A stretch of 30,427 nt of DNA, taken from the IMG/VR virus record IMGVR_UViG_3300020183_003294, positions 1-30,427 of that record. One strand, given 5' to 3'. Positions 555-17,951 of the stretch are shown here, piece by piece. Within the stretch, counting starts at the first letter, position 1, and the number at the start of each line of letters is the position of its first letter. Origin of the DNA: a virus. Both the position numbers and the translations under genes were made by a program. The notes beneath the pieces were generated by a model, which was not told the origin of the DNA, made no database searches, and worked only from the letters and a program-made list of their open reading frames with translations.

Positions 555-1532
555 TTAATGATTTACAAATGGGTTATATCTCTTATCCAACATTTCTTTA
601 TTTTCCAAATACCATTCTGTGGTTAATCTAATACCATCCTCTAATGATACTAATGGTTCAATACCATACGATTTTGCACGTGTGGTATCAAATAACCTTA
701 TGTCATCTCCCTTATTATTATTTGAATTTGAAAATTTAACTAAATTTTTTCTACTCGAATTAAGATAAACTAATTCAACTAAATCTCTTATTGAACGTCC
801 ATTACCTGAACCTAAATTAATTGGTTCTGTTATTTTATTCTCAACGGCCATTATCATTCCTCTTGCCACATCATCACAATAAATAAAATCTCTAATTGCT
901 GAACCATCTCCCATAACTTCCAACACATCATTCTCATTAGCTTTTCTAATAAGAGATGGTACGACCATTGCATTTTCAGGATTGAAATTATCATATGGAC
1001 CATAAACATTAGCGGGTCTTACTATTGAAAATCTATCAAACCCATGTTGAATTTTATATGTTTCAATTTGTAATTCTCCAATTCGTTTTGCCCAACCTGG
1101 ATACCTATCATTTGGTGACGGAAATGTATCCCAAACAGTGTCTTCTTTGAATATTTGAGCGGGAGCATATACACCGACTGAACTGGTATATAAAAACCAT
1201 TCAACATTCGCTTCATATGCTGCTTGTATCATATTGGTATTAAATTGTAACATGGGAACCATGAAATCAACAGGTTGTTCTTTACACATTTTTGGTGACC
1301 CTTTAACACCAGCCAAATGGAATACAAAATCCATTCCTTTACAGATATCCAAACAATTGTCGAAAAACCTTAAATCAACTTGTAAGTGTTCAACACTTTC
1401 AGGTAAATCAGATGGTTTTGTTAAATCTGCAATAAAAATTTTACATTCCTTTTCTAACAACAATTTCACTAAGGATCTTCCTATCATTCCACCACCACCT
1501 GTTATTAATACTTTTTTATCTTTAAACATCAT
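555..1532 (-). CDS. NAD-dependent sugar epimerase/dehydratase (extended SDR)
   Basis: A 325-residue extended short-chain dehydrogenase of normal family length, probably acting on a nucleotide sugar. Visible motifs are TGGGGMIG (11-18) for NAD(P) binding, DFVFHLAG (68-75), YTSSVGVY with the catalytic Ser/Thr (115-122), and RPANVYGP near residue 172. The catalytic Tyr/Lys region reads RYPGWAKR: Tyr144 and Lys149 are five residues apart instead of four, so either Pro145 occupies the usual Tyr position or the active site is shifted. Two consecutive ATG codons (1532 and 1529) could start it, and the start overlaps the end of the upstream PLP-enzyme gene by 11 bases, indicating translational coupling. 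It likely catalyses an epimerisation, reduction or dehydration in the same nucleotide-sugar pathway as its two neighbours. Confidence 0.88.
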   Translation of the reverse strand: MMFKDKKVLITGGGGMIGRSLVKLLLEKECKIFIADLTKPSDLPESVEHLQVDLRFFDNCLDICKGMDFVFHLAGVKGSPKMCKEQPVDFMVPMLQFNTNMIQAAYEANVEWFLYTSSVGVYAPAQIFKEDTVWDTFPSPNDRYPGWAKRIGELQIETYKIQHGFDRFSIVRPANVYGPYDNFNPENAMVVPSLIRKANENDVLEVMGDGSAIRDFIYCDDVARGMIMAVENKITEPINLGSGNGRSIRDLVELVYLNSSRKNLVKFSNSNNNKGDDIRLFDTTRAKSYGIEPLVSLEDGIRLTTEWYLENKEMLDKRYNPFVNH

Positions 1533-2706
1533 TTAATTTTTTACATAGTTCAATTATTTGTTCATCCGTCAAATCTGTGTGATTACCAATATATAATGAA
1601 TTGTTATGGATGTAATTCACATTATCTAATTTACCTACAATTCTATGTTCATATTTTTCCAAGAAAGGTTGTAAAACTTGATTACCACCTCCAGATGTTC
1701 CTAAACGGTACTCCACACCACACAAATCTAAAATATCACAAACACTACTGTAATCATCATTTATATGTAATCTATCAGTGTAATGTGGATGCATAACTAA
1801 GGGTAAAGCAAAATTACTATTCTCACCATCATCCCATTCTGTTTTGAATTTTCTAGAATCAAGATTATCTAACCAAACTTTGAAATTATGTCTTCTCTTT
1901 TCAACATTATAGTCAATTCTTTTCATCTGTTCAATACCTAAAACGGCATTCAATTCCGTACTTCTCATATTAAATCCAGCAACCGCAAACGTGAATAAAG
2001 GATTTAATTGTGGGTAATTTTCTTTAAAAAATTGCTGAGATTCTAATGAACTTTCTCTTGTCATTCCGTGTGAACGAAATAATCTTGCTAAGTCATCGTG
2101 TAAATCTTCCTTAACACAAACCATACCACCTTCAACAGTTGTTATATGGTGTCCAAAATAAAATGAAAATATAGATATATCACCAAAAGTACCAACTTTT
2201 TGACCTTTATAACTAGCACCATGTGATTCACAACAATCTTCAATTAAAAGAATATCTTTTTCTTTTGCAATTTTTACTATTTCTTCATTGATTGCATTAA
2301 AACCTAAACAATGAACTAAAACAATTGCTTTTGTTTGGGGTGTGATTGCTTTTTCAATATTTTCCAATGTTATCGAAAGATTATCCATTGATATATCAAC
2401 AAAAACAGGTGTCATACCAAGTTGTACTATTGATGAAACGTCTGAAACCCAACCAAGTGGTGGTACTATAACTTCACCGATACCTAACAGTTCTTTTACC
2501 ATGGCTATTGAAATGTAATTTCCTGAACTACCGGAATTTACCATAGTACTATGTTTAACTCCTAACCATTTCGACCATAATTTTTCGAATTCTTTTACTT
2601 TATCACCATTAGTTAATCTTTGATTTGATAATATAAAATCCGCTAATACTTTTCTATCAGATTCTGAGATATTATTGTTTATTAATGGCCATTTATAATT
2701 TTTCAT
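1522..2706 (-). CDS. PLP-dependent sugar 3-dehydratase-like protein (DegT/DnrJ/EryC1/StrS fold, ColD/RfbH-like)
   Basis: At 394 residues this is a full-length DegT/DnrJ/EryC1/StrS fold-type I PLP protein. It has NSGSSGNY (57-64) for phosphate binding, the PLP-ring Asp in LLIEDCCESHG (153-163), and the active-site loop SFYFGHHITTVEGG (181-194). Aligning the loop to the family K-x-I-T-T-G-E-G-G pattern puts His186 where aminotransferases have the Schiff-base Lys. In established members with this change (ColD, and E1/RfbH), the enzyme is a 3-dehydratase that removes the C3 hydroxyl of a 4-keto-6-deoxy sugar. I therefore infer a dehydratase making a 3-deoxy sugar, not an aminotransferase. I see no [2Fe-2S] cysteine cluster that would favour the E1 subtype. 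Its stop overlaps the following SDR start by 11 bases. Confidence 0.88.
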   Translation of the reverse strand: MKNYKWPLINNNISESDRKVLADFILSNQRLTNGDKVKEFEKLWSKWLGVKHSTMVNSGSSGNYISIAMVKELLGIGEVIVPPLGWVSDVSSIVQLGMTPVFVDISMDNLSITLENIEKAITPQTKAIVLVHCLGFNAINEEIVKIAKEKDILLIEDCCESHGASYKGQKVGTFGDISIFSFYFGHHITTVEGGMVCVKEDLHDDLARLFRSHGMTRESSLESQQFFKENYPQLNPLFTFAVAGFNMRSTELNAVLGIEQMKRIDYNVEKRRHNFKVWLDNLDSRKFKTEWDDGENSNFALPLVMHPHYTDRLHINDDYSSVCDILDLCGVEYRLGTSGGGNQVLQPFLEKYEHRIVGKLDNVNYIHNNSLYIGNHTDLTDEQIIELCKKLNDV

Positions 2707-3407: not shown

Positions 3408-4146
3408 TTTTTTCGAATATTTCTTTTAATAAATTAGTTTCAATTTTTATTGGATTATGAATTCCCATGGGGTCATAATAATAATCGTCTTCCATTGCAA
3501 ATTTTTTAGCACTTTCCAAATCGGCTAAACCATCGTCTAACAAATATTTTGAAAAATATATGTCTTCCCACATTCCGTAATCCGATTTGTATTTTTCAGT
3601 TATTTTAATCATTTTGTCTCTTGTTCTTAAAGATAAACCACCATTTCCTACAAAACAACCTTCTTTTGGTTTTTTCCAAGGAGCACCAATATAATCCCAT
3701 TTTAAAAAATCCTCGATTCCACTTTTTAGCAACATAGAATCATTTTGAAAAATTAATATCTTATTTCCCATAGATTTTTTCCAAAATTCAGTAGATTTCA
3801 AAATTTCAGTGTGAGTTTGTCTACTTGTAAAATTTGGTATATTCAAATTTTCATAAACAATGTTTTCAAATTCTTTAAACAAATTTTTTAAATAATATTC
3901 ATTTTCACTATTATGAAAAATTTGTAATCCCCACTTAACACCTAAACTATTATTATTTAAGAAATATAAATGATTTTTTACAATAGGTAATAGTTCAGGT
4001 AAACATCTTAAATCGAACAGTGAAGCATAATAGTTTGAATTTTCGTCAATCTCGGGTATGTAATTTTCTAATTTATTCTCAAAAATTTTCAAATATTTTT
4101 TAAACAATAGTAAATTTTCCTCTTTATAAATTAATTCTTGACTCAT
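3385..4146 (-). CDS. DUF5672-type putative glycosyltransferase
   Basis: A 253-residue protein whose centre carries the signature I associate with DUF5672 proteins: IFQNDSMLL (132-140), WDYIGAPW (150-157) and VGNGGLSLR (166-174), followed by a conserved acidic WEDIYFS segment. Members of this family are found in bacterial and viral glycan loci and are treated as GT-A-like glycosyltransferases; the N-D-S in FQNDS stands in the position of a DxD-like metal and nucleotide site. The N-terminal 100 residues are rich in Lys, Asn and Tyr and do not match anything I recognise. The gene overlaps the upstream SGNH gene by 4 bases (ATGA type). The donor sugar cannot be told from sequence. Confidence 0.8.
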   Translation of the reverse strand: MSQELIYKEENLLLFKKYLKIFENKLENYIPEIDENSNYYASLFDLRCLPELLPIVKNHLYFLNNNSLGVKWGLQIFHNSENEYYLKNLFKEFENIVYENLNIPNFTSRQTHTEILKSTEFWKKSMGNKILIFQNDSMLLKSGIEDFLKWDYIGAPWKKPKEGCFVGNGGLSLRTRDKMIKITEKYKSDYGMWEDIYFSKYLLDDGLADLESAKKFAMEDDYYYDPMGIHNPIKIETNLLKEIFEKNVLEYTL

Positions 4147-4766
4147 AATTTATCTTTAATATTTTCATAAATGTAATCACCTATAATTTTATATCCCTCT
4201 AAGTTTGGATGATAATCTCCTTCGTAAAAATTTTTCTCATCATTCCATATACTTCTACTACCATATTCCCACACACTCATATCATTTTTTATTTCATAAT
4301 CTCTTAGTACATCCGCAACACAACCATTTGGATTTATGAAATATTTTGGTAATTGGGTAGTGTCGAATTCATAATCTTTAAAAGATGGGTAAAACGAATT
4401 AAAATAAAAATGTTTTATACCTATTAGTTCTTTTTCTAACATGTTGTAAATGTCAATTACGGTTTCACTATCATGTCTCATATATCTATATGGCCAAGAA
4501 AACATTATTATGATAACATCATCTGTATCGATATAACCGTTTTGTAATGAAACCACCACATTGTTGTAAATGTATTTGTTACCATCACCACAAACACCGT
4601 TATTTACGTATACACACCCTAATTTTTCAGCCGTCCATCTCGGCCAAGAATTCTGTTCCCTAAGTCTTTCAATAAAAAGTGGGGGATTTGGTATCTCTTT
4701 ATAAGACTCGTCTGTCTCAACTCCATGGCCCGCGGTCCAACTATCACCAAAACAAATTATTCTCAT
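4143..4766 (-). CDS. SGNH/GDSL-hydrolase-like protein
   Basis: A 207-residue protein with a GDSWTAG block I (residues 7-13, nucleophile Ser9) and an NNGVCGDGNKY segment at 55-65 that could supply the Gly and Asn oxyanion residues. The C-terminal block is EGDYHPNLEGY, with His186 and Asp184 two residues before it; the family usually has DxxH, so the spacing is one shorter here. SGNH proteins act as esterases or, in glycan loci, as O-acetyl transferases or deacetylases, which fits this context. There is no signal peptide. It overlaps its neighbours by 1 and 4 bases and sits directly after another SGNH-like gene, so the two may act on the same glycan or as a pair. Confidence 0.82.
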   Translation of the reverse strand: MRIICFGDSWTAGHGVETDESYKEIPNPPLFIERLREQNSWPRWTAEKLGCVYVNNGVCGDGNKYIYNNVVVSLQNGYIDTDDVIIIMFSWPYRYMRHDSETVIDIYNMLEKELIGIKHFYFNSFYPSFKDYEFDTTQLPKYFINPNGCVADVLRDYEIKNDMSVWEYGSRSIWNDEKNFYEGDYHPNLEGYKIIGDYIYENIKDKL

Positions 4767-5509
4767 TATAGGAATTCTTTAATGTAGTTATACATATACT
4801 CTGATTGAGTGATGTGACCGTATTCGCCGAAATGTCCATCATTAACGGTTTCATTTGTTTCTTGAGAAATTTTTGCAATTAGTCTATCGTGTTGTTTATT
4901 ACAGAGGTCCTCAATTTCAGACATAATACCTCTATTAATGTTCTCGTAATCATTTCCTTTAATAATTCTATAATCATCTTTAAATAGGGTTTTAAATTGT
5001 ATAGTTATATGTTCATCACTAGACCAATGAAAAACGTGTGCACCTATTTTGTTTAGATAAATGTTAATCAATAACATCCAAGAGAACACCTCTTCAATCC
5101 ACAAATGGTGTGTTCTATTAATTAATACCTCATTTATTGCGTTTTGGGATACACTTATACCAGGAAACCCACCAACACTATTTGGTTGTATTTGATTGAA
5201 GACGTTTTCCTCCTCATTAACTAATTGAAATCTAGCCGGATTTGTCCATCCAAATATTAGAATATCGTCTTTTTTTATAGAGTGTACAAACTCTAAAAAT
5301 TGTTTAAATATTAAATAATTACTAGAACCACCAACCGCTCTATTTTGACATTCATACCCTAATTTATTTGCTAATAATGTTGGCCAAACGTCGGGAAGGT
5401 TATTATTTCTACATTTTTTATATTCGTCATATTTGCTTGTCATGTAGGGGTGTCCTACAGGGTAATATTCTGCGGTGAAACTACATCCAAATGTCCATAG
5501 TGTGCTCAT
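4766..5509 (-). CDS. SGNH-hydrolase-like protein (GCSFT type)
   Basis: A 247-residue protein that opens with LWTFGCSFTAEY, so block I is GCSFT with Ser10 as the predicted nucleophile and Cys in place of the usual Asp. NRAVGGSSNYLIF near residue 56 fits the oxyanion Gly/Asn blocks (RxxGGSSN). The C-terminus has DGHFGEYGH, giving Asp224-x-His226. It is one of five SGNH-like genes in this run and shares the GCSFT block with those at 7886-8758 and 13882-14724. Overlaps are 1 base downstream and 4 bases upstream. Likely an acyl esterase or acyltransferase on a glycan; substrate unknown, and with only short motifs conserved the catalytic activity is not certain. Confidence 0.75.
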   Translation of the reverse strand: MSTLWTFGCSFTAEYYPVGHPYMTSKYDEYKKCRNNNLPDVWPTLLANKLGYECQNRAVGGSSNYLIFKQFLEFVHSIKKDDILIFGWTNPARFQLVNEEENVFNQIQPNSVGGFPGISVSQNAINEVLINRTHHLWIEEVFSWMLLINIYLNKIGAHVFHWSSDEHITIQFKTLFKDDYRIIKGNDYENINRGIMSEIEDLCNKQHDRLIAKISQETNETVNDGHFGEYGHITQSEYMYNYIKEFL

Positions 5510-6855
5510 GATTTGTTTGTTAAATTACTAAAGAACATATAGTCTCTTTTTATTTTTAAAATATCTAATACCCTTTGTTTATTAGCCTCAAACCTTTCAA
5601 AATTATTTTCATAAAATTTAATAAATTTATCTTTATTTTCATAGACTCTTTTTATTTCTCTGAAAATATCGAAAAACCTTAGTTTGTCGTTCATCTTATC
5701 ATCGTAATTGTGATCAATCATATCTTCAAAAAAATCAAAACCATATTTTTGTTTCATAATTGAAATATGATGTGGGGTTGCAATTATAATTGGGAATTGA
5801 TAAAAGAAAAATGGTCTAAATGATTTTTCAGTAATTTGTACAACGTTTGGACAATTACTAAACATTGATTCTGTTACAATATTCACATAAGATTCTTCAA
5901 ATGTTTTATTCTTCTCAGGAATTTGTTGCCATTTGGGTAGCATGGTTTTGTCTAATTCTTGTAATGGTTTAAACCATCCTTCGTCACCTTCATAATCACT
6001 AACTTTCATTTGAATGTTATTGAAATATTCGATCTCTTCGTCTAAAATTTCAATTGCTGTTGAGTCGAACAGGGAATCATAAAAGTTACCGACGGGATAC
6101 CCCCAATATGTCGGTACCAACGACCAATTCACATCTTTATCCAATAATCCGATTTTTTTTAACAGAACTAAAATGGCATACCTATGTGATTTCGGTGATT
6201 TATTGTGACATAAAAAAAATTTACCTTCTTTTTCTTTTTTATAAACAGAACCTATTTTTTGTAAAACTCTAGTGGATGAGTTTGGAATGAACTCAAGAGC
6301 ATGTTCTTTTACTTTAAAATCACCATGTATTTTTTTCAACCAATGTATTTTTGCGTTATTATTTACAAAGTATACTTTTTCAAGATTTATACCTAATTTT
6401 TTTAGATAATCGACCGTTAATCTATAACCTAATTCACTATCGGGTTCATGTTCAGTTAAGAAAATTAAAAATAAATTATCATATTCTATTAAAGATTTGG
6501 TTACCTCATTACTTAGTGGTTTTTTACCATCTAATATTGCCTGTACATTTTCTCCGTGAACATGAGGGATACAAAAAAATCTTGATAAATCAAAACTGTA
6601 ATGGTTTATAATGTAATAAAAATTCTCTTCAGGTCTTTCACTTATTTCATTAAATCTACATCTTTTTACTGTAAATTTTTCGCTCTCTTCAAGCACGGGT
6701 TCCAAGAACTCATAACTCAACATCCTATCTAAATAATTGTTTATAAGATTATACCCATCCCAAAATGTTTTTTCACCATAGATATTGACGCAATTCGGTA
6801 TTGGTTCTTCCGAATCTATTGGCCAATTATCATATACTAAATTTAATACTCTCAT
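5506..6855 (-). CDS. Putative GT-B glycosyltransferase, GT10-like motif family (paralogue 1)
   Basis: A 449-residue protein that belongs with three others in this window. The shared motifs appear in the same order: NKSPKSHR (218-225), NIVTES (325-330), QITEKSFRPFFFYQFP (340-355) and YGFDFFEDMIDHNYD (371-385). The TES...TEK arrangement resembles the donor-site region of GT10 fucosyltransferases (FEN...TEK), so I infer a nucleotide-sugar-binding GT-B enzyme. This copy has a long N-terminal half, including FLTEHEPDSELGY, and about 90 extra residues between the HR and TES motifs. The C-terminal part is a charged helical region. It overlaps both neighbours by 4 bases. The relationship among the four copies is directly visible; the glycosyltransferase function is inferred. 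Confidence 0.7.
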   Translation of the reverse strand: MRVLNLVYDNWPIDSEEPIPNCVNIYGEKTFWDGYNLINNYLDRMLSYEFLEPVLEESEKFTVKRCRFNEISERPEENFYYIINHYSFDLSRFFCIPHVHGENVQAILDGKKPLSNEVTKSLIEYDNLFLIFLTEHEPDSELGYRLTVDYLKKLGINLEKVYFVNNNAKIHWLKKIHGDFKVKEHALEFIPNSSTRVLQKIGSVYKKEKEGKFFLCHNKSPKSHRYAILVLLKKIGLLDKDVNWSLVPTYWGYPVGNFYDSLFDSTAIEILDEEIEYFNNIQMKVSDYEGDEGWFKPLQELDKTMLPKWQQIPEKNKTFEESYVNIVTESMFSNCPNVVQITEKSFRPFFFYQFPIIIATPHHISIMKQKYGFDFFEDMIDHNYDDKMNDKLRFFDIFREIKRVYENKDKFIKFYENNFERFEANKQRVLDILKIKRDYMFFSNLTNKS

Positions 6856-7889
6856 ATATTTTTTAATATGTTTTTCATAAAACCGTAACTTTTATCTATA
6901 AACTCTGAATTATTTTTTAAATCATATTTTATACACAATTCCTTAAATATTTTTGGTACATACTCGTCTTGAATAATTAGTTCATATGCACGTTTTTTAT
7001 TGTATAATATGATATCAAAATTTTCTTCATATAGTTTATTTAAATCCATTCCTTTTAGATTTTTTATATTTTGGATAACACCTTCTGCTCTTTTTTCTAA
7101 GTCATCTTCTGAATCAAAAGAATAGTCAAAAATATTATCATATAATTTAAATCCATAATTTTTTAGTATCGAATTTTGATTTTTACTTCCATAACATAAA
7201 AATGGTTGTTCCATTAAAATTGGTTTGAATGTTTTCTCTGTTATAAACTCACACTCAATGTTAGATTCTGTAACGAGAAAGAAAAAAGAATTATTATTAA
7301 TTAAAAAGTCAGTTCTATCGTTGTGATTTGTCTCATTAAACTCATCTAGATTTAGTATTTTTTCCTGCCAATTTTTAAAATTATAATATCCTCTTGACCA
7401 TATCTCATCACTTAGTTTACACCAAGATATATTTCCATAATTTTCGAGTCCGTTTTGAAAAATTTTATCAATCAACAAACATCTATGATAATGTGGTTTA
7501 TTATTATACGATATGAATAATTTATCAAAATTTTTATTAATTTTTATGTTGTTTAAATTATTAGAATAATATGGACACATAAATGCATAAGTAAAATGTA
7601 ATAAAAATGTAGGCCAATTATGGATTATAATTTTTTCATATTTATTTATTTTTTCATAATACTTTTCATCTTGTGCACCAAAAATTATATGTGTTGTTGT
7701 ATCATTTTTTTTACATATCAAATTTAATAAATTAAAATCATAGTTTTCATTACCTCCAGATAACGCAAATTCACCAAATGATAATATAAGAACATCTTTA
7801 GGTTTTGTTTCGTTAATTTTTATTATAACATCGTCAAAACTAAATCGACTTAAATCGTTTGAATTACATATTAATATTTCTGATGTCAT
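6852..7889 (-). CDS. Putative GT-B glycosyltransferase, GT10-like motif family (paralogue 2)
   Basis: At 345 residues this is the shortest of the four related proteins. It has NNKPHYHR (129-136), FLVTES (204-209), FITEKTFKPILMEQPF (215-230) and YGFKLYDNIFDYSFD (245-259). The FLVTES...FITEK spacing is close to the GT10 fucosyltransferase donor-site motif (FxxENS...VTEK...AG..P), the best hint to function. The first 125 residues look like a reduced Rossmann-like domain (DVLILSFGEFALSGG, HIIFGAQDEKYY). The composition is very rich in Asn, Lys and Ile. It overlaps both neighbours by 4 bases and lies next to an SGNH gene, a pairing repeated elsewhere in the run. Confidence 0.68.
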   Translation of the reverse strand: MTSEILICNSNDLSRFSFDDVIIKINETKPKDVLILSFGEFALSGGNENYDFNLLNLICKKNDTTTHIIFGAQDEKYYEKINKYEKIIIHNWPTFLLHFTYAFMCPYYSNNLNNIKINKNFDKLFISYNNKPHYHRCLLIDKIFQNGLENYGNISWCKLSDEIWSRGYYNFKNWQEKILNLDEFNETNHNDRTDFLINNNSFFFLVTESNIECEFITEKTFKPILMEQPFLCYGSKNQNSILKNYGFKLYDNIFDYSFDSEDDLEKRAEGVIQNIKNLKGMDLNKLYEENFDIILYNKKRAYELIIQDEYVPKIFKELCIKYDLKNNSEFIDKSYGFMKNILKNI

Positions 7890-8758
7890 AAAAAATCTTG
7901 AATTTTAGGTGGCCATCTTAGATATGGATGTTCGTTATTAATATAATTGATTCTCCTACCATTATTTTTTTCAAAATCACTCTCTATTTTAACAATTTCA
8001 TCTTTATCTGTTATGTAAGATGTCCAATCCACAGAATTTTTATGTAATTCAGCATCGAATGAATTGTTTTTTAAATCAAATGAATTTAAAACATACTTAG
8101 AGAACAAAAAATGACAATATGGTGATGGGTGATCGTCCCCATATATATTATTTTCATTTTCATAATAATAGGTTAATTTTTCTCTAAAATCTATATCACT
8201 ATTTAATATAAAACTTTCAACACTATCGATATAATTTTCATCTACAACCATTTTTAAATCCTCAAGAATACCACTCTCGGATGTCTCTTTATATTTTTTT
8301 ATCAGTTCATTTGGAATTTCTCCCGGTTCTCCCATCACATTAGAAATCCACGGCTCCAACATATAAAACCATTTAAAATTAATACCTTCGCTCTTCAATA
8401 ATGATAGTAAAACAACAATATAAGATAACAATTCATTCCCTTTTTGATTAACCGAGAAATATTTTTGAATATAATGATTGTCAAATAATGGTGAATTCGT
8501 AATTAAACCACCCGAATCCCACTCATTATTAATCATGATATCCTCTCGAGCCAATGCACTCCATTGTATTGTTACATAGTCATTCTTTTTTATTTTTTTT
8601 TCATAAATAAGTCTGACGATTTTATTAAATATAGATTTATTACCCGATCCTGATCGACCATAATTATATGTTTGGTCAAAATAAGGAGATAGATAATCAA
8701 CATACGTTGGATATTTGAAATTAGTAAAACTACACCCGAAAGAAAAAAGGTTTTTCAT
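7886..8758 (-). CDS. SGNH-hydrolase-like protein (GCSFT type)
   Basis: A 290-residue protein starting MKNLFSFGCSFT, giving block I with Ser10. YGRSGSGNKSIF (33-44) fits the oxyanion Gly and Asn blocks, and IQWSALAREDI (64-74) sits where a core strand and following helix would be. The C-terminal block is YGDDHPSP (206-213), giving Asp208-x-His210. After it comes a tail of about 70 residues ending PYLRWPPKIQDFL that the shorter paralogues lack. The gene lies between two of the GT10-like paralogues with overlaps of 4 bases and 1 base, suggesting that the ester or acyl modification is made on the glycan those enzymes assemble. No signal peptide is visible. The substrate is unknown. Confidence 0.75.
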   Translation of the reverse strand: MKNLFSFGCSFTNFKYPTYVDYLSPYFDQTYNYGRSGSGNKSIFNKIVRLIYEKKIKKNDYVTIQWSALAREDIMINNEWDSGGLITNSPLFDNHYIQKYFSVNQKGNELLSYIVVLLSLLKSEGINFKWFYMLEPWISNVMGEPGEIPNELIKKYKETSESGILEDLKMVVDENYIDSVESFILNSDIDFREKLTYYYENENNIYGDDHPSPYCHFLFSKYVLNSFDLKNNSFDAELHKNSVDWTSYITDKDEIVKIESDFEKNNGRRINYINNEHPYLRWPPKIQDFL

Positions 8759-10053
8759 TAAATCAGTGCATTTTTATCTAATTCTTTTTTTATGATACTA
8801 TACGGATAGGGGAGTGAATTACCGGCGTTATGTCTCAAAACCTCAAAGTTGTGTTTCAATGTTTTTTCCATATCTCTATACATAGATAATTTATTTTCTA
8901 TTTTATCTATTTGATAAAGAACCTTAACTATTTCGTTAATTCTTTTGGTGTCCTCCATTTCATCATAACTTTCATCAAACCAATTTGAAAATGTTTCATA
9001 CCCCAATTTTTTTAATTCTCTCAAACTAAAACGATTACCCATAACAATAAATGGGTGGTAACATGTCATCGGTTTAAATATCTTCTCACTTAAAAATACC
9101 GTACCTTGTTTGTCCTCATACTGTGCCTCACTTATGACAGACACCCAAGAATCTAAATGTGGTTTTTCATGTATTCTTACAACGTAATAGTTAGGGTCGT
9201 GAATTTCATTTGAAGTGTCGTATATTACTGATGGTAATGTTTTATACAATTCTTGGGTAAATTTATTATCCATAGTGATTCCGCAAAAATATCTACCTCT
9301 TTCTGGATCATCGAACTGATTCATACTAACAAGTCCCCTACTTAATAAATTTGTATAATATAATTTAGCATAAAACCATATTCTATGTTCTCTCGGTTTT
9401 TTGTTTAAATTATTAAATAATTTAATCTTATCGTTGTTATATATTTTATATTGATAGTGTTCTTCAAATGTATTCAATGGGGTTCCATTTCTTGTCATAT
9501 CTATTGATTGTGAAAACACATCGGATTCGAAATGTGAATATGGAATTACGTGTATGTTGATTTTTTGTGGTTTTTCTTGTAACCACATATCATACCTTTC
9601 TTTAATTATCGAATTACCTGTTACAAAGAATATTTGATTTGGGGATATGTCATATTCGATACATTCATTATGAAAAAAATCGAAAACCCAATCATCATGA
9701 TATCCTTCAAAACTTGAGTCTATTAATAGATATGCATTACCATTTCTCAAATCTTTTAGGAAAGTCTCATTAATAAACTCGAAAAGGCTGGGTATTGTGG
9801 AATCTGCAGAATGTTTACCTCCCGTCCACATGACTGGATCATTATTGACACCGATTGGGATTAAATAAGTTTTAGGTCTATTATCAATACGGAAATCATT
9901 TGAAATAAATTCATAAGATCTATTGAAACTCCTTAGAAAAGACATCCTATTATAGAAAGGACAAAGTGTAAATCTTGTGGAACCCGCTTTATTCATAACC
10001 CAATGGTTCACAAAATTTCTTGGGGTTGCTATATCTTCAAATACAAAGTTCAT
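8758..10053 (-). CDS. Putative GT-B glycosyltransferase, GT10-like motif family (paralogue 3)
   Basis: A 431-residue protein with NKKPREHR (217-224), SVISEA (305-310), FLSEKIFKPMTCYHPF (320-335) and GYETFSNWFDESYD (351-364). Of the four paralogues it is closest to the C-terminal half of the 10058-12181 fusion. Besides these motifs the two share an N-terminal block: LIDSSFEGY...IFFVTGN here and LIHQFEGYSG...VHYIHGN there. That suggests a tandem duplication in which one copy gained an SDR domain. The segment between HR and SEK (about 100 residues) probably forms the interdomain hinge of a GT-B fold. It is separated from the upstream fusion gene by only 4 bases. Function as a sugar transferase is inferred from motif resemblance to GT10 and from context. 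Confidence 0.7.
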   Translation of the reverse strand: MNFVFEDIATPRNFVNHWVMNKAGSTRFTLCPFYNRMSFLRSFNRSYEFISNDFRIDNRPKTYLIPIGVNNDPVMWTGGKHSADSTIPSLFEFINETFLKDLRNGNAYLLIDSSFEGYHDDWVFDFFHNECIEYDISPNQIFFVTGNSIIKERYDMWLQEKPQKINIHVIPYSHFESDVFSQSIDMTRNGTPLNTFEEHYQYKIYNNDKIKLFNNLNKKPREHRIWFYAKLYYTNLLSRGLVSMNQFDDPERGRYFCGITMDNKFTQELYKTLPSVIYDTSNEIHDPNYYVVRIHEKPHLDSWVSVISEAQYEDKQGTVFLSEKIFKPMTCYHPFIVMGNRFSLRELKKLGYETFSNWFDESYDEMEDTKRINEIVKVLYQIDKIENKLSMYRDMEKTLKHNFEVLRHNAGNSLPYPYSIIKKELDKNALI

Positions 10054-10057
10054 TTCA

Positions 10058-12181
10058 TTAAAATGTTTTCCAAATTTTTCTTAATATTTCTACAATCGGC
10101 TTCTTATTATCAGACCATCCGTGTCCATCATAGTCATATTTTTCTTTTATAATTTCCACAAATCTATTTCTATTAAATAGACAAACCTCATACATTTCTT
10201 CTCTAATTTGTGTGAGTTCTTCTATTGATTTTGATTTAAATTTATTTAATTCATTTACAATCTTTTCTATCTTTTTATGATGGTCCGGCTCCAAATCGTA
10301 ACTTTCGTCAATCCATCTATCAAATGTCCTGAATCCTTGTTCTTTTAGATACGATAATGTATGTAAATTTCCCAATAAAATAAATGGTTGACCCGCAACT
10401 ATTGGTTTCCAAATTTTTTCAGAAATAAAGAGAATGGAGGTGTCAATCAGGGTCTCTGTAATGACCGAAATAAATGTAGACTCGTAATCAGGTATTTCAA
10501 TGTTTACCGCCCAATTTATATCTAATGTTCTATCTATTTCAATAGGTGTTATTTTAGATAAGTCTTCATATTCATCATATGGTTCAAACTTACCCAAACT
10601 TATTTTCCCTCGATTAAAAAGTTCATTTTTTATCAATTCATTTACCAAATGCACTCTATGTGGTCTTGGGTTTCTGTTATATGATAATATCAAATGCTTA
10701 TCATCAATTGGTTCAAATTTAACAATATCATTCTTTAGAAGTCTATAATCCACCCACGAATCAAATATTGATATGGGGTGACATGTAAAACTGAGACCCC
10801 TTTGTTTCCTAACTTCATCAACAAGAAGGTTACCATGAATATAATGTACGTTTTTATCGGGTAGATTTGATTCTTTAATCCATTTATCTATTACCTCTAA
10901 GTCATTATTATATATATTCATTCCACTATACCCTTCGAATTGGTGAATTAAAACAATTTTGCACCTATCTTCCCGTACATCCTTAAGATATTCTTCAGAA
11001 ATACATTTAAAACCAATGTCAATGTTTTTAGTAAAAAATTTATTGTCATAAACATTTATAAGGTATAAATGATTTTTTTTATTTAATCTATTTTTTTCAA
11101 CGTAGTTTATTAAAGAATTATATTTTGTTGTAATGTTTTCTCTTAACACATCATCGGGCCATAATTTATTAGAATCTTCTATATTGAATAGATTCCACAC
11201 ACCCCAAGATTTAGGAAAATCAAAACTACCTGTTTCTTTTAGATACCAAGATTTTGAAAAACCATTAGGTCTATAATAATTAAAAACTGTGTCCCAGTCC
11301 TCTAACGAACAAACAATTTTTTCATCATTAATTAGTTCTGTGAATCCATCTTCAAAAGTTATGTGGTTAAATTGTATGTGACTTTCTAATTTAGAAAAAT
11401 CGACTTTATATGATCTACTATCTTCACTTACGATTAATGTATATTCTAAATCAGGTTTTATCGATTTATTTATTCTATCAATTAAATCCTTTTTACTTAT
11501 GTTTAACTCCTTTTTACCTATATTAATAATTTTACCATCAAAATCGTTTTCAATTAAACTTTTTAATACTCTTACACAATCTTTAATGTGAATGTGTGGT
11601 CTTTCGGCTAACGGGTCAAATATTTCTATTAATCTATTATGTTTTATATCATCAATCAAATTGTTTATTAAGACATCATCCCTACGTAATTTACTTGCAC
11701 CATAAAGAGTTGATAATCTTACAATTTTAAATTTTGGATTATTTTTTGAAAGTATAATATTTTCACATTTAATTTTTAATTCTGAATATAAAGACGTAAT
11801 CTGTGTCTCAGAATTTTCATTAACTATATCGTTTCTTTTTCCATAAACACTACAACTGCTTGAGAAAATGAGTCTTGTGTTTTCGTTGTTAATTAAGTTA
11901 ATAGTATTTCTGAATTCTTTTACCGGTTCTATTAATTGTATTTCATCTGTTAAATCTAAAAGCCTCGGTGATGCTAAGTATATAATTAAATCCATCGAAT
12001 TAACCAAATCAGAATAATTCCCGATGTTACATACATCATCATTAATTACCTTTATATTATTATTCAAAAAAGTGATATTACTGTATAAGAATTTATCATA
12101 TACTGTAACATCATAATCAATAAGACTGTTGGATAATGGAATACCTAAATAACCAGCACCTCCTATAATTAAAATTTTCAT
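10058..12181 (-). CDS. Bifunctional fusion: NAD-dependent sugar epimerase (SDR) + GT10-like glycosyltransferase (paralogue 4)
   Basis: A 707-residue two-domain protein. Residues 1 to about 290 are an extended SDR with GGAGYLG (7-13), LIIYLASP (65-72), FSSSCSVYG (106-114), the canonical catalytic pair Tyr132-Ser-Glu-Leu-Lys136, and RLSTLYGAS (155-163). Residues of roughly 360-707 are the fourth copy of the GT10-like family: NRNPRPHR (502-509), SVITET (572-577), FISEKIWKPIVAGQPF (585-600) and GFRTFDRWIDESYD (616-629). The linker of about 70 residues contains WDTVFNYYRPNGFSKSWYL. A fusion of this kind would couple making an epimerised nucleotide sugar to its transfer. It follows the amidinotransferase gene after a single base. 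The SDR half is certain; the transferase half is inferred. Confidence 0.85.
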   Translation of the reverse strand: MKILIIGGAGYLGIPLSNSLIDYDVTVYDKFLYSNITFLNNNIKVINDDVCNIGNYSDLVNSMDLIIYLASPRLLDLTDEIQLIEPVKEFRNTINLINNENTRLIFSSSCSVYGKRNDIVNENSETQITSLYSELKIKCENIILSKNNPKFKIVRLSTLYGASKLRRDDVLINNLIDDIKHNRLIEIFDPLAERPHIHIKDCVRVLKSLIENDFDGKIINIGKKELNISKKDLIDRINKSIKPDLEYTLIVSEDSRSYKVDFSKLESHIQFNHITFEDGFTELINDEKIVCSLEDWDTVFNYYRPNGFSKSWYLKETGSFDFPKSWGVWNLFNIEDSNKLWPDDVLRENITTKYNSLINYVEKNRLNKKNHLYLINVYDNKFFTKNIDIGFKCISEEYLKDVREDRCKIVLIHQFEGYSGMNIYNNDLEVIDKWIKESNLPDKNVHYIHGNLLVDEVRKQRGLSFTCHPISIFDSWVDYRLLKNDIVKFEPIDDKHLILSYNRNPRPHRVHLVNELIKNELFNRGKISLGKFEPYDEYEDLSKITPIEIDRTLDINWAVNIEIPDYESTFISVITETLIDTSILFISEKIWKPIVAGQPFILLGNLHTLSYLKEQGFRTFDRWIDESYDLEPDHHKKIEKIVNELNKFKSKSIEELTQIREEMYEVCLFNRNRFVEIIKEKYDYDGHGWSDNKKPIVEILRKIWKTF

Positions 12182-12182
12182 A

Positions 12183-13193
12183 TTAGTCTCTTAATAATTC
12201 AGTTGTAACGCAATGAAAAGAACCACCCAAAGTTCTTGAATGTCTTATCTTGCAATCCAACGATTCAATATTATATTTTTTTAATTCTTTAATTAAATCC
12301 TGTTGTCTATTATCAACTATAACAGTATTTTCATCTATTGATAGTAGGTTAACTCCTATCCAAACTGACGCTCTAATTGTTTTATGATAACCTATGTCAA
12401 CCATAGGTGGACACCATATTTTATCCCATGATTTTAGAAACTCCGGCATGTTATTTTCATTTACTCTTTCAGGATTTAATAAACAAAGCCCCTCTCGAAG
12501 TAATGCAATGGTTGAGTCTATGTGGATATAAGAATAAACATTTTCAATTGTATGTATTCTGTAATCTTTACCCAAAAAGTTTTGCAACCATTTAGCGCCC
12601 TTTAAGTTACCGGTGTTAGATACCAAATATAAAATATCATTATTACATCTTAGAATGTTTGCTGCGTCAAAAACCGGTTCATAATTGTTCAATGTTATTT
12701 TTGATAAATCTTCTCTTTGATACATTGAATCGAGTAATCTCGGTTTTGGTGCTGCAACCCAATTTGCACCTTGTTCCATTTTTCCAATAAAAATATCTCT
12801 GAAACAATCGGTTTCAAATTGTCTTGATCTAAGTGACATTGGTGATTCTAATATGTTATTACCAATCACGGTTACAGTATCTCGAGGACAAAATGTATAA
12901 TACTGTGTTGTCTCCCAATAACCATTTGATACTGGTTTTTGTGTATCTATTGGGGTTGGACGATGTACTTTAACGCCCGTATCTTTTAATAAATCTGATA
13001 ATTTTTCTAAATCTTCAAAAGTTTCATCATACACTTTAGAATCCCAAAAACCGATTTCATCTTTCGGTATTTCATTTTCCGTCGCGTAGTTTATACAATG
13101 TAAATCTTTACCATGTGTTGGCATATTTGCATTGTCAATTGTGCCGACGATTATTTCTCTAAGTCTACCCCATTCATTATTAACTGATACCAT
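12183..13193 (-). CDS. Glycine/inosamine amidinotransferase-family protein
   Basis: A 336-residue member of the amidinotransferase family, which contains arginine:glycine amidinotransferase (AGAT) and StrB-type inosamine-phosphate amidinotransferases. The catalytic triad is in place: Asp176 in EPVFDAAN (172-179), His224 in YIHIDST (222-228) and Cys328 in GGSFHCVT (323-330). The Asp to His distance (48 residues) is nearly the same as in human AGAT. The N-terminus, NNEWGRLREIIVG, fits the family opening and supports the start at 13193, even though this overlaps the upstream SGNH gene by 43 bases. The enzyme would move an amidino group from arginine to an amine, making a guanidino group, here plausibly on an aminosugar or on a protein or small amine. 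Acceptor unknown. Confidence 0.92.
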   Translation of the reverse strand: MVSVNNEWGRLREIIVGTIDNANMPTHGKDLHCINYATENEIPKDEIGFWDSKVYDETFEDLEKLSDLLKDTGVKVHRPTPIDTQKPVSNGYWETTQYYTFCPRDTVTVIGNNILESPMSLRSRQFETDCFRDIFIGKMEQGANWVAAPKPRLLDSMYQREDLSKITLNNYEPVFDAANILRCNNDILYLVSNTGNLKGAKWLQNFLGKDYRIHTIENVYSYIHIDSTIALLREGLCLLNPERVNENNMPEFLKSWDKIWCPPMVDIGYHKTIRASVWIGVNLLSIDENTVIVDNRQQDLIKELKKYNIESLDCKIRHSRTLGGSFHCVTTELLRD

Positions 13194-13885
13194 CGTTTTA
13201 TTTTTTTATTTTTTAATAATATGTTTTTTATTTCATAATGACCTAATTGATTTGGGTGGTACCCATTACCTTCAAAAAATTCACCAATAAACATATTTTT
13301 AGTGGGTCCGTCTGTCTGATTCTCTATTAAATTTATGTCTTCTAAATTCGTTAAAATTGAGGTTAGACTTCTGTCAAAATCTAAAAAATTTTCCTTCAAT
13401 AATAAATTATTAAATGATTCATAAATTTTTAATTTACCATAATTGTGAACGAATAAAAAGTGAACATGTTTTTCTTTAAAAAATTCTTGTAAAACAAATA
13501 GAAAAAGTGATTGATGATATTCGTACCATATTTTTCTATGTGTTATTGTATTTACATATAATGATAATTCAGACTTTCTAATCTCATCAATTGTATCATC
13601 ATTGAATAAACTTTCATCAGGAACCCATAAACTGGATATTTTATTATCAATATTTTCATAATACCACCTAACGTCCGGTGGAACTATTACTAACACAAAA
13701 TCTTCTAAATTAAATTCACAATGATTTATAATATCATGTGTTATTTGACCAAAAGACGCACCCTCAACACTCTTGTTTTTAAAAGAAATATTTAAATCTT
13801 CAGCAATTAGATTTACAAAAGGTTTTTCTTTAGTCAAATCCAATTCACTTCCATATCCCCAACTGTCTCCGAAACAATATATCAC
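13151..13885 (-). CDS. SGNH/GDSL-hydrolase-like protein
   Basis: A 244-residue protein with IYCFGDSWGYG at the N-terminus (Ser8 nucleophile), KSVEGASFGQI near 38-48 for the oxyanion Gly block, and a C-terminal GNGYHPNQLGH containing His210. The usual Asp three residues before that His is Asn207 here, so the triad may be incomplete or re-arranged. The opening resembles the 4143-4766 protein more than the GCSFT group. It pairs with the SGNH-like gene immediately upstream (4-base overlap), and its 3' end overlaps the amidinotransferase start by 43 bases. Probably an acyl-ester hydrolase or transferase acting on a glycan intermediate; no secretion signal. Confidence 0.78.
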   Translation of the reverse strand: MIYCFGDSWGYGSELDLTKEKPFVNLIAEDLNISFKNKSVEGASFGQITHDIINHCEFNLEDFVLVIVPPDVRWYYENIDNKISSLWVPDESLFNDDTIDEIRKSELSLYVNTITHRKIWYEYHQSLFLFVLQEFFKEKHVHFLFVHNYGKLKIYESFNNLLLKENFLDFDRSLTSILTNLEDINLIENQTDGPTKNMFIGEFFEGNGYHPNQLGHYEIKNILLKNKKIKRWYQLIMNGVDLEK

Positions 13886-14724
13886 TTATTAATTTGTTTA
13901 GTCTTTAATATTTCATTTACAACAATATCTTGAGATAAATGTCCGTTATGTGATAAATCACGTCCTGTAGTTCCTGTTGTGTCATCAATGGAGAGTAGGG
14001 TTATATCGTTTTTAAAAAAATAATCAGAATATTCGATATCAAAATCACCATTCCAAGTCCAATGAATTACAGGTATATCCATAGATTTCCAAATATTGTT
14101 ACAGGTCATTATTGAAAAATTAACATTTTTCATTCTTTCACCACAGTTCTCCATATAACTTGTGATATACCAAGGTCCGTATTCTTTTGCGTTTTTTGGA
14201 TATAAATCTTCAGGATAAGTTGGTGAGAACAATTCGATATCTAAAGATTTGTTTTCTTGATTCAAAAAAGTATAGAACGTTCTATGTTTAAATGGCCATT
14301 GATAAATTACATACTTTGGAAATTTTTTATTTCCTAAAATAAAATTCTGATACAAAAGTGTATTGTACATTTGGAAATCGGGGCCGGTTGCTCCCATACC
14401 TAAATTCAAAATGTCCATATCTAATATTAGGCCAAGTTTTGTTGACCACATATCACTATGATAAAGTCCAACTCCTTCTGTAAAAGAACATCCAAATACC
14501 AATATATAATCATCTTTTAACTCATCAAATTCCATACTTCTATATCCCCAAGAATTATATTGATATGTTATCGGTTTTTCATAATAGTACCAATTTGTAC
14601 CAAAAATATCTTTGTTCTTTATAAAAGATTCGGGAGAATCTGTGTCCTTAAAATATTTTGTTGTGTTGGAGTTGTGTGTGTTTTGGATTACAGGACAACT
14701 ATTATTAACTGATATGTACGACAT
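13882..14724 (-). CDS. SGNH-hydrolase-like protein (GCSFT type, canonical DxxH)
   Basis: A 280-residue protein with a pre-domain containing YQYNSWGYRSMEF (54-66), a lead-in seen in many SGNH proteins (NSxGYRxxE) just before block I. Block I is VFGCSFTEG (76-84, Ser80). NLGMGATGPDFQ supplies oxyanion Gly residues. The C-terminus has GRDLSHNGH, giving a canonical Asp256-x-x-His259. Of the five SGNH-like proteins here it has the most complete triad. It overlaps its neighbours by 1 base (upstream DegT-like gene) and 4 bases (downstream SGNH gene). The likely activity is esterase or O-acyltransferase on a sugar. Confidence 0.8.
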   Translation of the reverse strand: MSYISVNNSCPVIQNTHNSNTTKYFKDTDSPESFIKNKDIFGTNWYYYEKPITYQYNSWGYRSMEFDELKDDYILVFGCSFTEGVGLYHSDMWSTKLGLILDMDILNLGMGATGPDFQMYNTLLYQNFILGNKKFPKYVIYQWPFKHRTFYTFLNQENKSLDIELFSPTYPEDLYPKNAKEYGPWYITSYMENCGERMKNVNFSIMTCNNIWKSMDIPVIHWTWNGDFDIEYSDYFFKNDITLLSIDDTTGTTGRDLSHNGHLSQDIVVNEILKTKQINK

Positions 14725-15404
14725 TATTTAAAAACGTTAAAGTTCTTTAAGTTTGGATAACTTTTATTGTTGTGAGAGTCGTCATTAATTTTTGGTATCG
14801 TATCCATTAAAATAATACCTCTCGCGGCGTCCTCTGGTGTCATGTAATAATGCCAACCATAAAATTCAATATTGTCTTGGTCGTATGGTAAGTCTAAATT
14901 TCTACCATCATAACAAACTTTTTTAAACCACTTATAGGCATCATAATCATTACATAAAATCATACCCCCTTTACCGATTGGTATTCTTTTTTTTATTTGG
15001 AATGAAATAATTTGAAATCCGCTTATATACATATCTTTGGTCCACCTACCTGCGGAATCCCATATATCTAATGGTTCTAGTTTATACACACCGGACCATT
15101 CCTTATCAACAAATTCAAAATCATATCCCGCGTGTTTTATATACATAGGAACTGAGGTATATGTGTGTGATGGTATGTATAATTTTTGTGGTTGATTTAT
15201 ATATTTCAAAACAAGAAATAATCCATGTGTACAACAATCAACCGCAACAGCATACTTTGATCCACAAAATTTTGCAACTTTATCTTCAAATAAAGAAACA
15301 ACTTCATGTGGTTGTGTCCAATTATACCCTAATTCTTTTATCTGTTCTAATTCAGGTCTAGATAAGTTTATTGGTGGTTTTCCTAATGGCCATTCCTTGA
15401 ACAT
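14724..15404 (-). CDS. Short DegT/DnrJ/EryC1/StrS-type PLP protein
   Basis: A 226-residue relative of sugar aminotransferases, which are normally about 370 residues. Visible family elements are the VAVDCCTHGLFLVL phosphate-binding start (53-66), YIPSHTYTSVP (76-86), the PLP-ring Asp116 in IWDSAGR, and the active-site loop SFQIKKRIPIGKGG (134-147). In the loop Lys139 aligns with the Schiff-base Lys, so aminotransferase chemistry is possible. The usual GEGG is GKGG (Lys145). The C-terminal small domain is largely missing: the protein ends about 80 residues after the loop, directly at the next gene's start, with no remnant in another frame. It may be a compact viral form or a degenerate one. The start at 15404 overlaps the upstream gene by 47 bases. 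Confidence 0.8.
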   Translation of the reverse strand: MFKEWPLGKPPINLSRPELEQIKELGYNWTQPHEVVSLFEDKVAKFCGSKYAVAVDCCTHGLFLVLKYINQPQKLYIPSHTYTSVPMYIKHAGYDFEFVDKEWSGVYKLEPLDIWDSAGRWTKDMYISGFQIISFQIKKRIPIGKGGMILCNDYDAYKWFKKVCYDGRNLDLPYDQDNIEFYGWHYYMTPEDAARGIILMDTIPKINDDSHNNKSYPNLKNFNVFK

Positions 15405-16503
15405 CTTTTATAAATGTTTTATTTTTAAATTCATGTGATAATTCCTCTTTAAACTCATAGGAACCCGGTTGGTCCCATTCTTTACCAAAAAGTCTTTTCA
15501 GTAATTTATTCTCTAAATCATCAGTTGGGTATGACCAAGGTTGATTTCTATAATAAACCGCAAATTCACTCCATGTTGACCTATGTGATCTAACTAAAAA
15601 TTTACAAAAACTAAGTGAAAATAAATCTACAATATTACTGATTACTTGTCCCCTAACTAATTTTCTGATATCAACACCCGCACTTAACAAATAATCTTGA
15701 ACTACGGGAATAAAATCTTCCTTTGTAATTATTTTGTCTTGATACTTGTCTTTGTAATATGAAAACATTTCATAAGGCAAATCACAACTAATATAAAATT
15801 TTTGTTCGGGATTAATTTCCAAAATCCTATCTATAATTTTAAAATATAACTCATCTTTAAAAAATTTGTAACCTCTATTTACTGCACCCTTTATGGCGTG
15901 AAGTTCTTCAAAGTCTTTTCTAATATGTTCAGGTAACGACAAAACATCCTCTTCTTTGATGGATACACCACAATTTCTTCTGATATGAATACCAATAACA
16001 TCCTTAGTATTTCTACGTAAAAAATCCTCTATAAAATGATGTCTTAAAGTAATTGAAGTTAATGGTCTCCACTTAACATTTTTTCTAGTATAATTTTGTA
16101 ATTCTTCATATCCAAAATCAGAATACCAATGATTATCCTGTGTTAAATCGAAACAATTATTTTTAAACATATTGTCCAACATATCTCGGTCAATTTTGGA
16201 TGCCAATCTTACATCATCGTTTTGTAAATCGAATACGGTTTTAAATCTTAAATTTTGGAATTTAAATTCATGATATAATCCATATTCATATTCTAAAAAT
16301 TTAAAAGTAGCGGTATTTGGGAGATATAACAAATCTAATTCAGGCCAATGAAGGTGTTGTAGTATTATTTTGAAATCGTAATTATTTTGTTTACATATTT
16401 CATGTGCAATTTCCCAATGGAATATTCTATTACATAACCCAGTATCATTTTCCGACCAACCACCATATGGCTCTAACCATCTTAATGTTTTATTGTATTC
16501 CAT
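15358..16503 (-). CDS. GT-B fucosyltransferase-like protein (GT11/GT23/O-FucT-type motifs)
   Basis: A 381-residue protein with the three motifs shared by alpha-1,2-, alpha-1,6- and protein O-fucosyltransferases. The N-terminal glycine-rich GLCNRIF (22-28) is comparable to GGLGNRLF. GIHIRRNCG (171-179) matches the H-x-R-R motif that binds GDP-fucose. FYISCDLPYE (236-245) and VDLFSLSFCKFLVRSHRSTWSEFA (292-315 overall) correspond to the C-terminal donor-site region. I infer transfer of L-fucose or a related GDP-sugar. That fits the GDP-fucose-synthase-like SDR at the end of the run, although no GDP-mannose 4,6-dehydratase lies in this window. The 1-base overlap with the upstream radical-SAM gene and 47-base overlap downstream show tight coupling. 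Confidence 0.82.
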   Translation of the reverse strand: MEYNKTLRWLEPYGGWSENDTGLCNRIFHWEIAHEICKQNNYDFKIILQHLHWPELDLLYLPNTATFKFLEYEYGLYHEFKFQNLRFKTVFDLQNDDVRLASKIDRDMLDNMFKNNCFDLTQDNHWYSDFGYEELQNYTRKNVKWRPLTSITLRHHFIEDFLRRNTKDVIGIHIRRNCGVSIKEEDVLSLPEHIRKDFEELHAIKGAVNRGYKFFKDELYFKIIDRILEINPEQKFYISCDLPYEMFSYYKDKYQDKIITKEDFIPVVQDYLLSAGVDIRKLVRGQVISNIVDLFSLSFCKFLVRSHRSTWSEFAVYYRNQPWSYPTDDLENKLLKRLFGKEWDQPGSYEFKEELSHEFKNKTFIKDVQGMAIRKTTNKLI

Positions 16504-17951
16504 TAACTATTGTAATTTTCTTTATCTGAGACATATTCACCCGGTTCATAATGTGTGATTCTACCGTTAGTAACATTAACATTCGGTATTGAGTTGTCTA
16601 CCACTAATGAATCGTACCATTCAGCTATCTCAGGAAAAGTTTGTTGAAAGTTTTTGTTTCTACGAATGTCGTATTGAACATAAAAACTTTTAAAGTCGTG
16701 ATGTTGTAAAGAGTTATCTAACTCTGTTGTGTTGTGTCCTCTATTAACAACTTCAATATAGTCAATAAGTCTTTGAATTTGAGCCTTCTCTCCAACGGTT
16801 AGTAAATCACTATTTTTATGTTTTCTAAACCATATTGATAATTTGCCGTGTAATTCATACTTAATTTCGTTTGGTAACACTAAAGGTGACATAAACGCCG
16901 GCCATCTTAAGATATTTAAATCTACAATAGGTTTATGTGTACCATATTTAGCTTTAAGAGATAACATATCATCTAAAAACTCTGTGATACTAAACAAACA
17001 CAAACTATTAATAGTCATCATAATCACCACCTGTCTAAAGTTTGCATTTTCAATAAACTTTACAAGATTTGATTTCCATAATTCGTAATTTAAACCATCT
17101 CTAATATATTCGGCGTGTGGACCATAGGACTCATTACTGGTATATAAATCAAACTCCTTAACTTCAACCTCGTGTGTAACATTAATGAGTTTTTTAAGTG
17201 TCTTATCATTTAAACCTAAATTTGAATTAATGGCTAACCTTAAATTAGGTGACGGGTATTGTTTCATCAAATCTATAAATTGCCAGAAGTTCCTACTTTG
17301 TGAAGGTTCACCACCAGTAACTCGAATCTCCAATAACTTTTGTGATAGTTCGGGCCACCATTCTAAAAACGCCTTTACATATGGATTATTTTCATTGTAT
17401 TTACCGAATATTTCAGACCAAGATCCATCAGCATAATACGCACCCGCACTTGTTGTCTTGAATTTTTGATATGCCCCGTTATCTTTAATATCCTTTCCCC
17501 AAGTTGTCGAGTATCCTGAGTTACAATATGAACAAGCGAAATTACATGTTCTATCAAAAGACACCTCAATTGTTTTTGGGGTGATGTCCTCGTTCCAAGG
17601 AATTTCTTTTAATTTCGCAATATCTTGTTCTTCGTAAATAATACTTTTATACACCCTGTCGGCAATATTATTTCTACCAATATCCTCAACCCTCCAACAA
17701 TAAGAACATTCGGCGGGTTTTACTCCCTCCAACATCATTTTTCTTATTCTCTTTTTAAAATCGGTATTATGTAGTGCCGATGGATTTGTTTTAATTGCTT
17801 CAGCATCAATTGGATGTGGTAACGGTAAATGACAGGAATTTGTAAAACCGTGTCCAAGGTGTAAACTTACGTTATACCATTTAGCCGCACAAAAACTACA
17901 ACTAACTGAATTTAAGTGTTTATCTCTCCAATTTGCTAATTCTTCTGACAT
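16503..17951 (-). CDS. Radical SAM protein with N-terminal twitch-like cysteine module
   Basis: A 482-residue radical SAM enzyme. The CX3CX2C that binds the 4Fe-4S cluster and SAM is RTCNFACSYC (Cys136, Cys140, Cys143), followed by VTGGEPSQS (211-219). Upstream lies a second cysteine set, Cys18, Cys21, Cys40, Cys82 and Cys85 (SCSFCAAKW, TNSCHLP, ECSYCWRVED), resembling the N-terminal auxiliary-cluster module of twitch-domain radical SAM proteins. The chemistry is unknown; such proteins are recurrent in phage glycan regions. It is clearly paralogous to residues 220-684 of the 18703-20757 fusion, which carries an N-terminal LamG domain. Here the LamG is instead the separate upstream gene, in the same frame with a stop and 12 open codons between. 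Confidence 0.9.
   Translation of the reverse strand: MSEELANWRDKHLNSVSCSFCAAKWYNVSLHLGHGFTNSCHLPLPHPIDAEAIKTNPSALHNTDFKKRIRKMMLEGVKPAECSYCWRVEDIGRNNIADRVYKSIIYEEQDIAKLKEIPWNEDITPKTIEVSFDRTCNFACSYCNSGYSTTWGKDIKDNGAYQKFKTTSAGAYYADGSWSEIFGKYNENNPYVKAFLEWWPELSQKLLEIRVTGGEPSQSRNFWQFIDLMKQYPSPNLRLAINSNLGLNDKTLKKLINVTHEVEVKEFDLYTSNESYGPHAEYIRDGLNYELWKSNLVKFIENANFRQVVIMMTINSLCLFSITEFLDDMLSLKAKYGTHKPIVDLNILRWPAFMSPLVLPNEIKYELHGKLSIWFRKHKNSDLLTVGEKAQIQRLIDYIEVVNRGHNTTELDNSLQHHDFKSFYVQYDIRRNKNFQQTFPEIAEWYDSLVVDNSIPNVNVTNGRITHYEPGEYVSDKENYNS

Follow-up and report, generated by a model that had tools for sequence, protein, structure and literature searches.

Four paralogous proteins of an uncultured phage point to a mainly viral family of putative GT-B glycosyltransferases near GT10

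An uncultured virus record of 30,427 bases, analysed here over its whole length (the window), carries nearly all of its genes on the minus strand. Four of these genes had been proposed to encode paralogous glycosyltransferases with a resemblance to the GT10 fucosyltransferases. The locus raises the question which kind of enzyme these genes, named A to D here, encode, which molecule might be glycosylated, and how four related copies came to lie so close to each other. All four open reading frames were confirmed exactly with the originally predicted boundaries, and the strand, which had been left unstated, is minus in every case. Their positions are given in Table 1 together with the other features of the window.

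Table 1. Position of genes A to D, of the surrounding genes and of a terminator-like element in the 30,427-base window. An empty cell means that no entry applies or is given.
Feature	Coordinates	Strand	Description	Conserved residues
NAD-dependent nucleotide-sugar epimerase/dehydratase	555-1532	(-)	same cluster, by synteny	
DegT/DnrJ sugar aminotransferase	1522-2706	(-)	same cluster, by synteny	
SGNH/GDSL-like gene	4143-4766	(-)	sub-threshold Lipase_GDSL_2 match; downstream of A; syntenic in relatives	
SGNH/GDSL-like gene	4766-5509	(-)	assigned by motif; downstream of A; syntenic in relatives	
Gene A	5506-6855	(-)	449 aa, glycosyltransferase-like; conserved domain ~5548-6234	E137 (tentative base), R225, E329, E343-K344
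Gene B	6852-7889	(-)	345 aa; conserved domain ~6972-7538	E40 or E48 (putative base, alignment-dependent), R136, E208, E218-K219
SGNH/GDSL-like protein	7886-8758	(-)	between B and C; FGCSFT start motif by eye; no Pfam match	
Gene C	8758-10053	(-)	431 aa; conserved domain ~8827-9438	E116, R224, E309, E323-K324
Gene D	10058-12181	(-)	707 aa fusion; C-terminal glycosyltransferase-like part, conserved domain ~10139-10705	R509, E576, E588-K589
Gene D, N-terminal part	~11330-12181	(-)	NAD-dependent epimerase/dehydratase, residues 1-284	
Amidinotransferase, StrB1-like	12183-13193	(-)	directly upstream of D; 1bwd, E 1e-91	
381-aa protein	15358-16503		no Pfam or PDB match; O-fucosyltransferase-like GT-B resemblance by eye	
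Radical SAM protein	16503-17951			
Radical SAM protein	18703-20757		lectin-like N-terminal part	
Two GT7 (beta-galactosyltransferase-type) genes	20754-23599	(-)	second with laminin-G-like domain	
Collagen-like Ser/Thr-Gly repeat fibre protein	27551-29983	(-)	C-terminal Peptidase_S74 chaperone; candidate acceptor	
Terminator-like hairpin	30060-30085		strong; separates the fibre gene from the following one	

The four proteins share a domain of about 200 amino acids, which corresponds to residues ~493-681 in D. The motif N-x-x-P-x-x-H-R is exact in all of them (NKSPKSHR in A, NNKPHYHR in B, NKKPREHR in C and NRNPRPHR in D), and the same is true for F/Q-x-S/T-E-K-x-F/W-K/R-P (QITEKSFRP, FITEKTFKP, FLSEKIFKP and FISEKIWKP in the same order) and for G-F/Y...D-x-x-F/Y-D. 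The predicted motif V-x-S/T-E was found in this form in C and D only; since A reads I-V-T-E and B reads L-V-T-E, it has to be written as [VIL]-x-[ST]-E. BLASTP revealed similarity far beyond chance between all pairs (E<=9e-5), with the highest significance for C-D (6.6e-24), B-D (3e-20) and B-C (4e-11), followed by A-D (3e-9), A-B (9e-7) and A-C (9e-5). A to D share a common ancestry, in line with the proposed paralogy.

The surrounding genes include DegT aminotransferases, epimerases, the amidinotransferase, the GT7 genes and radical SAM proteins, and in addition a methyltransferase and a 2OG oxygenase; apart from the oxygenase, it is this company around A to D which points to glycan biosynthesis. 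The neighbours of the family as a whole (n=110) comprise 18 SDR epimerase/dehydratases, 14 twitch-type radical SAM proteins (NF033640, best E 4.7e-119) and 4 UDP-sugar dehydrogenases. The amidinotransferase is closest to the inosamine-phosphate amidinotransferase StrB1 and adjoins the D orthologue in three other loci as well (L010, L084 and L087), the copies being 79-93% identical, and this phage enzyme suggests synthesis of a guanidino-sugar. Five SGNH/GDSL-like proteins with the motif FG[CD]S[FW] are interleaved with the glycosyltransferase genes (4143-5509, 7886-8758 and 13151-14724), one of which has a Pfam match, and this below threshold; they are possibly sugar acyl-transferases or esterases. 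As general partners of the family the SGNH-like genes are unconvincing, with 20 of 239 neighbours compared with 15 of 334 genes farther off.

None of the 27 gene products of the window has clear transmembrane character, and the acceptor is therefore probably soluble. A candidate is the collagen-like fibre protein beside the cluster, in whose repeat 284 of 450 residues are Ser or Thr, with more than 100 triplets of the G-[ST]-[ST] type. The same collagen-like DNA pattern is present in four further records (G004, G005, G006 and G011). The repeat is found in 5 of 14 family-carrying records and in close relatives only, which rules it out as an acceptor for the whole family. For a virion protein as acceptor in general we see an even chance. 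Another reading, possible but in our view somewhat doubtful, is that the cluster modifies a surface glycan of the host (LPS O-chain or capsule) during infection and in this way excludes other phages. In pelagimyophages a similar hypervariable, glycosyltransferase-rich cluster is located beside the tail fibre genes, and the part of that account which deals with the host-recognition cluster proposes modification of the host surface against other phages for its glycosyltransferases (PMC7029224). Such a function would however depend on host proteins here, as the window is devoid of a membrane protein, flippase, polymerase, ligase and initiating transferase.

Whichever acceptor is used, the family to which A to D belong is large. 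The shared domain had no credible match among the Pfam, PHROG and NCBIfam models, and with respect to these three collections the suggestion that it may deserve a family of its own was borne out. A scan of IMG/VR with the alignment of the four sequences identified at least 285 relatives in uncultured viral contigs. In a detailed set consisting of the window and 80 other viral loci, the four-copy profile recovered A to D and 130 further ORFs in the other loci, 134 in total. Two or more family ORFs are present in 39 of these 81 loci, six loci encode two family domains within a single ORF (L005, L012, L013, L059, L060 and L062), and 13 larger viral records contain 3-10 copies each. In cells the family is rare: among 967 genomes sampled, 8 carry it, including the three seed genomes, and the counts for the three phyla, each including its seed genome, were 4/291, 3/349 and 1/327. 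One seed copy is truly chromosomal because its contig is 936 kb long, while the other two, on contigs of 11-15 kb, may be viral. One cellular member (L241:1-2043) carries an N-terminal methyltransferase-like domain (Methyltransf_11, E 6e-4). When 50,697 phage records were searched by tblastn, C, the C-terminal part of D, the family consensus and two distant members all remained without a match; an epimerase used as control matched 283 records, and a GT7 query matched none.

For C and for the C-terminal part of D, structures were predicted using AlphaFold2 with 87 and 58 sequences, resulting in pLDDT values of 89.6 and 87.9 and a pTM of 0.89 for both. When these models were compared with the PDB by Foldseek, nearly all matches were GT-B proteins, the top ones with a probability of 0.9-1.0. 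The matches of C include OtsA, PimB', UDP-GlcNAc 2-epimerase, TagF, FucT13 and 2nzx, and those of D include HepE, SdgB, FucT13 (E 2.3e-4) and 2nzx (E 5.3e-4). The models thus bear out the expected two Rossmann-like domains, and on their basis C and D are predicted to have a GT-B fold. The TM-scores to solved enzymes are low (about 0.2-0.46), so the orientation of the domains or structural detail differs from known GT-B enzymes, and most of the top matches are proteins other than GT10. A sequence search of the PDB returned weak chance matches alone, with no glycosyltransferase among them. Foldseek against viral models (BFVD) detected 22 proteins of phages and of Mimivirus LCMiAC02 with E-values from 4.5e-19 to 1.6e-7, followed by a gap before the first named glycosyltransferases.

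Judged by secondary structure, both models place the arginine behind the initial strand of the second Rossmann domain and the E-K pair where one of the helices of that domain begins; this helix comes after a strand which ends in the third conserved glutamate. A layout of this kind, as modelled, would be expected of a GT10-type donor site. The relation to GT10 is also evident from profile searches. The family HMM scored at least 15 bits with 58 of 102 GT10 proteins (best 27.7), compared with a maximum of 6.2 bits for the controls (GT4 loci, GT9 loci, neighbours, and reversed and shuffled GT10) and of 4.9 bits for GT4 (PF00534) and GT9 (PF01075). The HMM-HMM comparison which had been recommended as a check was run against GT10, GT4 and GT9 and detected GT10 alone: hhalign gave a probability of 91% (E 1.1e-6), confident over 56 columns, as opposed to at most 0.2% for GT4 and GT9, whose control sets consist of the central ORF of each locus only, and at most 1.1% for 30 column-shuffled decoys. 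The E...T-E-K segment, which had called to mind the GT10 donor site, consequently shows a specific yet remote similarity to it.

It could be argued that A to D are diverged members of GT10 proper, i.e. fucosyltransferases using GDP-fucose. The conserved E, R, E and E-K occur in the same order in both families, GT10 was the sole family detected by profile among those tested, FucT structures are among the matches of the C and D models, and the neighbouring SDRs score with the GDP-fucose synthase model too. These SDRs, however, fit galE, LegB and dTDP models equally well, and none was singled out as a GDP-mannose dehydratase equivalog, so that a supply of GDP-fucose by neighbouring genes was dropped for lack of discrimination. 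PF00852 is the Pfam family met most often among 87 members, though weakly (3/87, best E 2.4e-4), and the GT10 profile scarcely detects the family in the reverse search (best 11 bits, E 0.012). A to D show no match to PF00852 even at E 10, and L025 reaches 15.2 bits at a gathering cut-off of 23.9. In agreement with the original remark that the rest of the protein differs, the GT10 signatures E-N, Y-x-T-E-K (G-Y-x-T-E-K) and I-P-I-Y-W-G are missing; the family consensus at these sites is V-T-E-T, F-I-T-E-K and Q-P-F-I-x-x-G. The family in turn has elements in addition to those of GT10, namely N-x-x-P-x-x-H-R, E-K-x-F-K-P...Q-P-F-I and a C-terminal block G-F-x-x-F-D-x-x-I-D-x-S-Y-D...R...N. The missing match, the sub-threshold score and the lost signatures led us to reject membership in GT10 proper, and a GDP-fucose-dependent GT10 activity of A to D is improbable. 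A to D are very probably nucleotide-sugar-dependent GT-B glycosyltransferases related to GT10, and the best reading is a new, unnamed and mainly viral GT-B family in the neighbourhood of GT10, without a new principle.

Among 87 members the arginine and the E-K pair are invariant (87/87 each), and the glutamates corresponding to E309 and E116 of C are present in 85 and 78 members. The E-K pair falls at the positions of Glu249-Lys250 of GT10, and the putative base glutamate and the arginine align with those of GT10 in a forced global alignment only. In GT10, an arginine acts at the phosphate. For the H. pylori FucT, Glu95 was proposed as base and Glu249 could stabilise an oxonium intermediate (PMC4202792); Tyr246, Glu249 and Lys250 contact the donor (PMC11468063). 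By analogy, we suggest that the C-terminal Rossmann domain of each protein would hold the nucleotide sugar, and that E-K and the arginine of N-x-x-P-x-x-H-R would lie at the diphosphate and the anomeric centre like Glu249, Lys250 and the arginine of GT10. The base would be a glutamate of the N-terminal domain (E116 in C); transfer of the sugar would be inverting and would need no metal ion. Modified sugars would be supplied by the epimerases, the DegT aminotransferase, the amidinotransferase, the methyltransferase and the 2OG oxygenase of the cluster, and D would combine a sugar-modifying SDR with its transferase in one chain. In the weakest step of this scheme, the sugars would be transferred to a soluble acceptor, e.g. 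a fibre of the virion like the Ser/Thr-rich protein beside the cluster. Phage glycosyltransferases often act on DNA bases, as reviewed in the literature, and the enzymes might instead glycosylate hypermodified bases of the phage DNA; the surrounding genes, which serve sugar-nucleotide metabolism and the modification of sugars and lie beside a tail fibre, argue against it, a base-modifying gene of the thymidylate or dCMP hydroxymethylase type was not encountered within this 30-kb window of the genome, and we regard this possibility as very improbable.

A tree built from 81 domains was used to trace the history of the four copies. They are located in four separate clades, and each is joined to an orthologue from another phage with 99-100% support. 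The order D-C-(B)-A-SGNH-SGNH-DUF5672-DegT is kept across several phages. Because of the separate orthologue clades and the syntenic order, the copies must be old and were not recently made in this phage. The expansion by tandem duplication assumed in the original prediction was therefore not borne out: four paralogues inside 7 kb and two-domain ORFs elsewhere, including the sister domains of one ORF in L012 by which tandem duplication does occur in the family, would fit a recent origin within this phage lineage, but the orthologue-paired clades, which count unless long branches distort the tree badly, and the shared gene order make it extremely improbable. The copies are not confined to one architecture: the D-type domain is also fused to an SDR in L010, L048, L084 and L087, L005 combines it with an A-type domain, and it stands alone in L003, L004 and L007.

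Taken together, we tentatively picture a family centred on viruses, of great age in phages and also present in a giant virus, with diverged copies that form an exchangeable toolkit (free, joined to one another or joined to a sugar-making enzyme), which might build phage-specific glycans on virion fibres. For hundreds of environmental phage proteins now listed as "uncharacterized", the assignment would provide a definite fold, a probable active site and an activity that can be assayed. If virions are decorated, the family would provide a genetic handle on the spread of virion glycosylation in uncultured phages; if host glycans are changed, it would be a handle on phage competition. The fusion of SDR and transferase offers a direct route to the donor sugar.

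A comparison with known systems places the family as follows. The clusters of pelagimyophages are, in the sections of that account which describe them, large and variable and contain glycosyltransferases and deoxysugar genes beside tail fibres, as is the case here; GT8 is the commonest type there, and those sections do not name the present family (PMC7029224). The BFVD proteins of uncultured Caudovirales and Mimivirus LCMiAC02 (e.g. A0A6J5LB74) belong by structure to the same family at an identity of 12-23%, and nearly all of them are uncharacterised and carry no glycosyltransferase annotation, unlike the reading given here for A to D. GT4, GT20, GT9 and the non-hydrolysing UDP-GlcNAc 2-epimerase have two Rossmann-like domains as in the family; GT20, GT4 and epimerase structures gave the best Foldseek E-values, GT20 and the epimerases being related by structure only, and for the GT4 and GT9 profiles sequence similarity is undetectable. 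GT10 (PF00852, e.g. H. pylori FucT 2NZW) combines the GT-B fold with the order E...R...E...[T/S]-E-K, as does the family.
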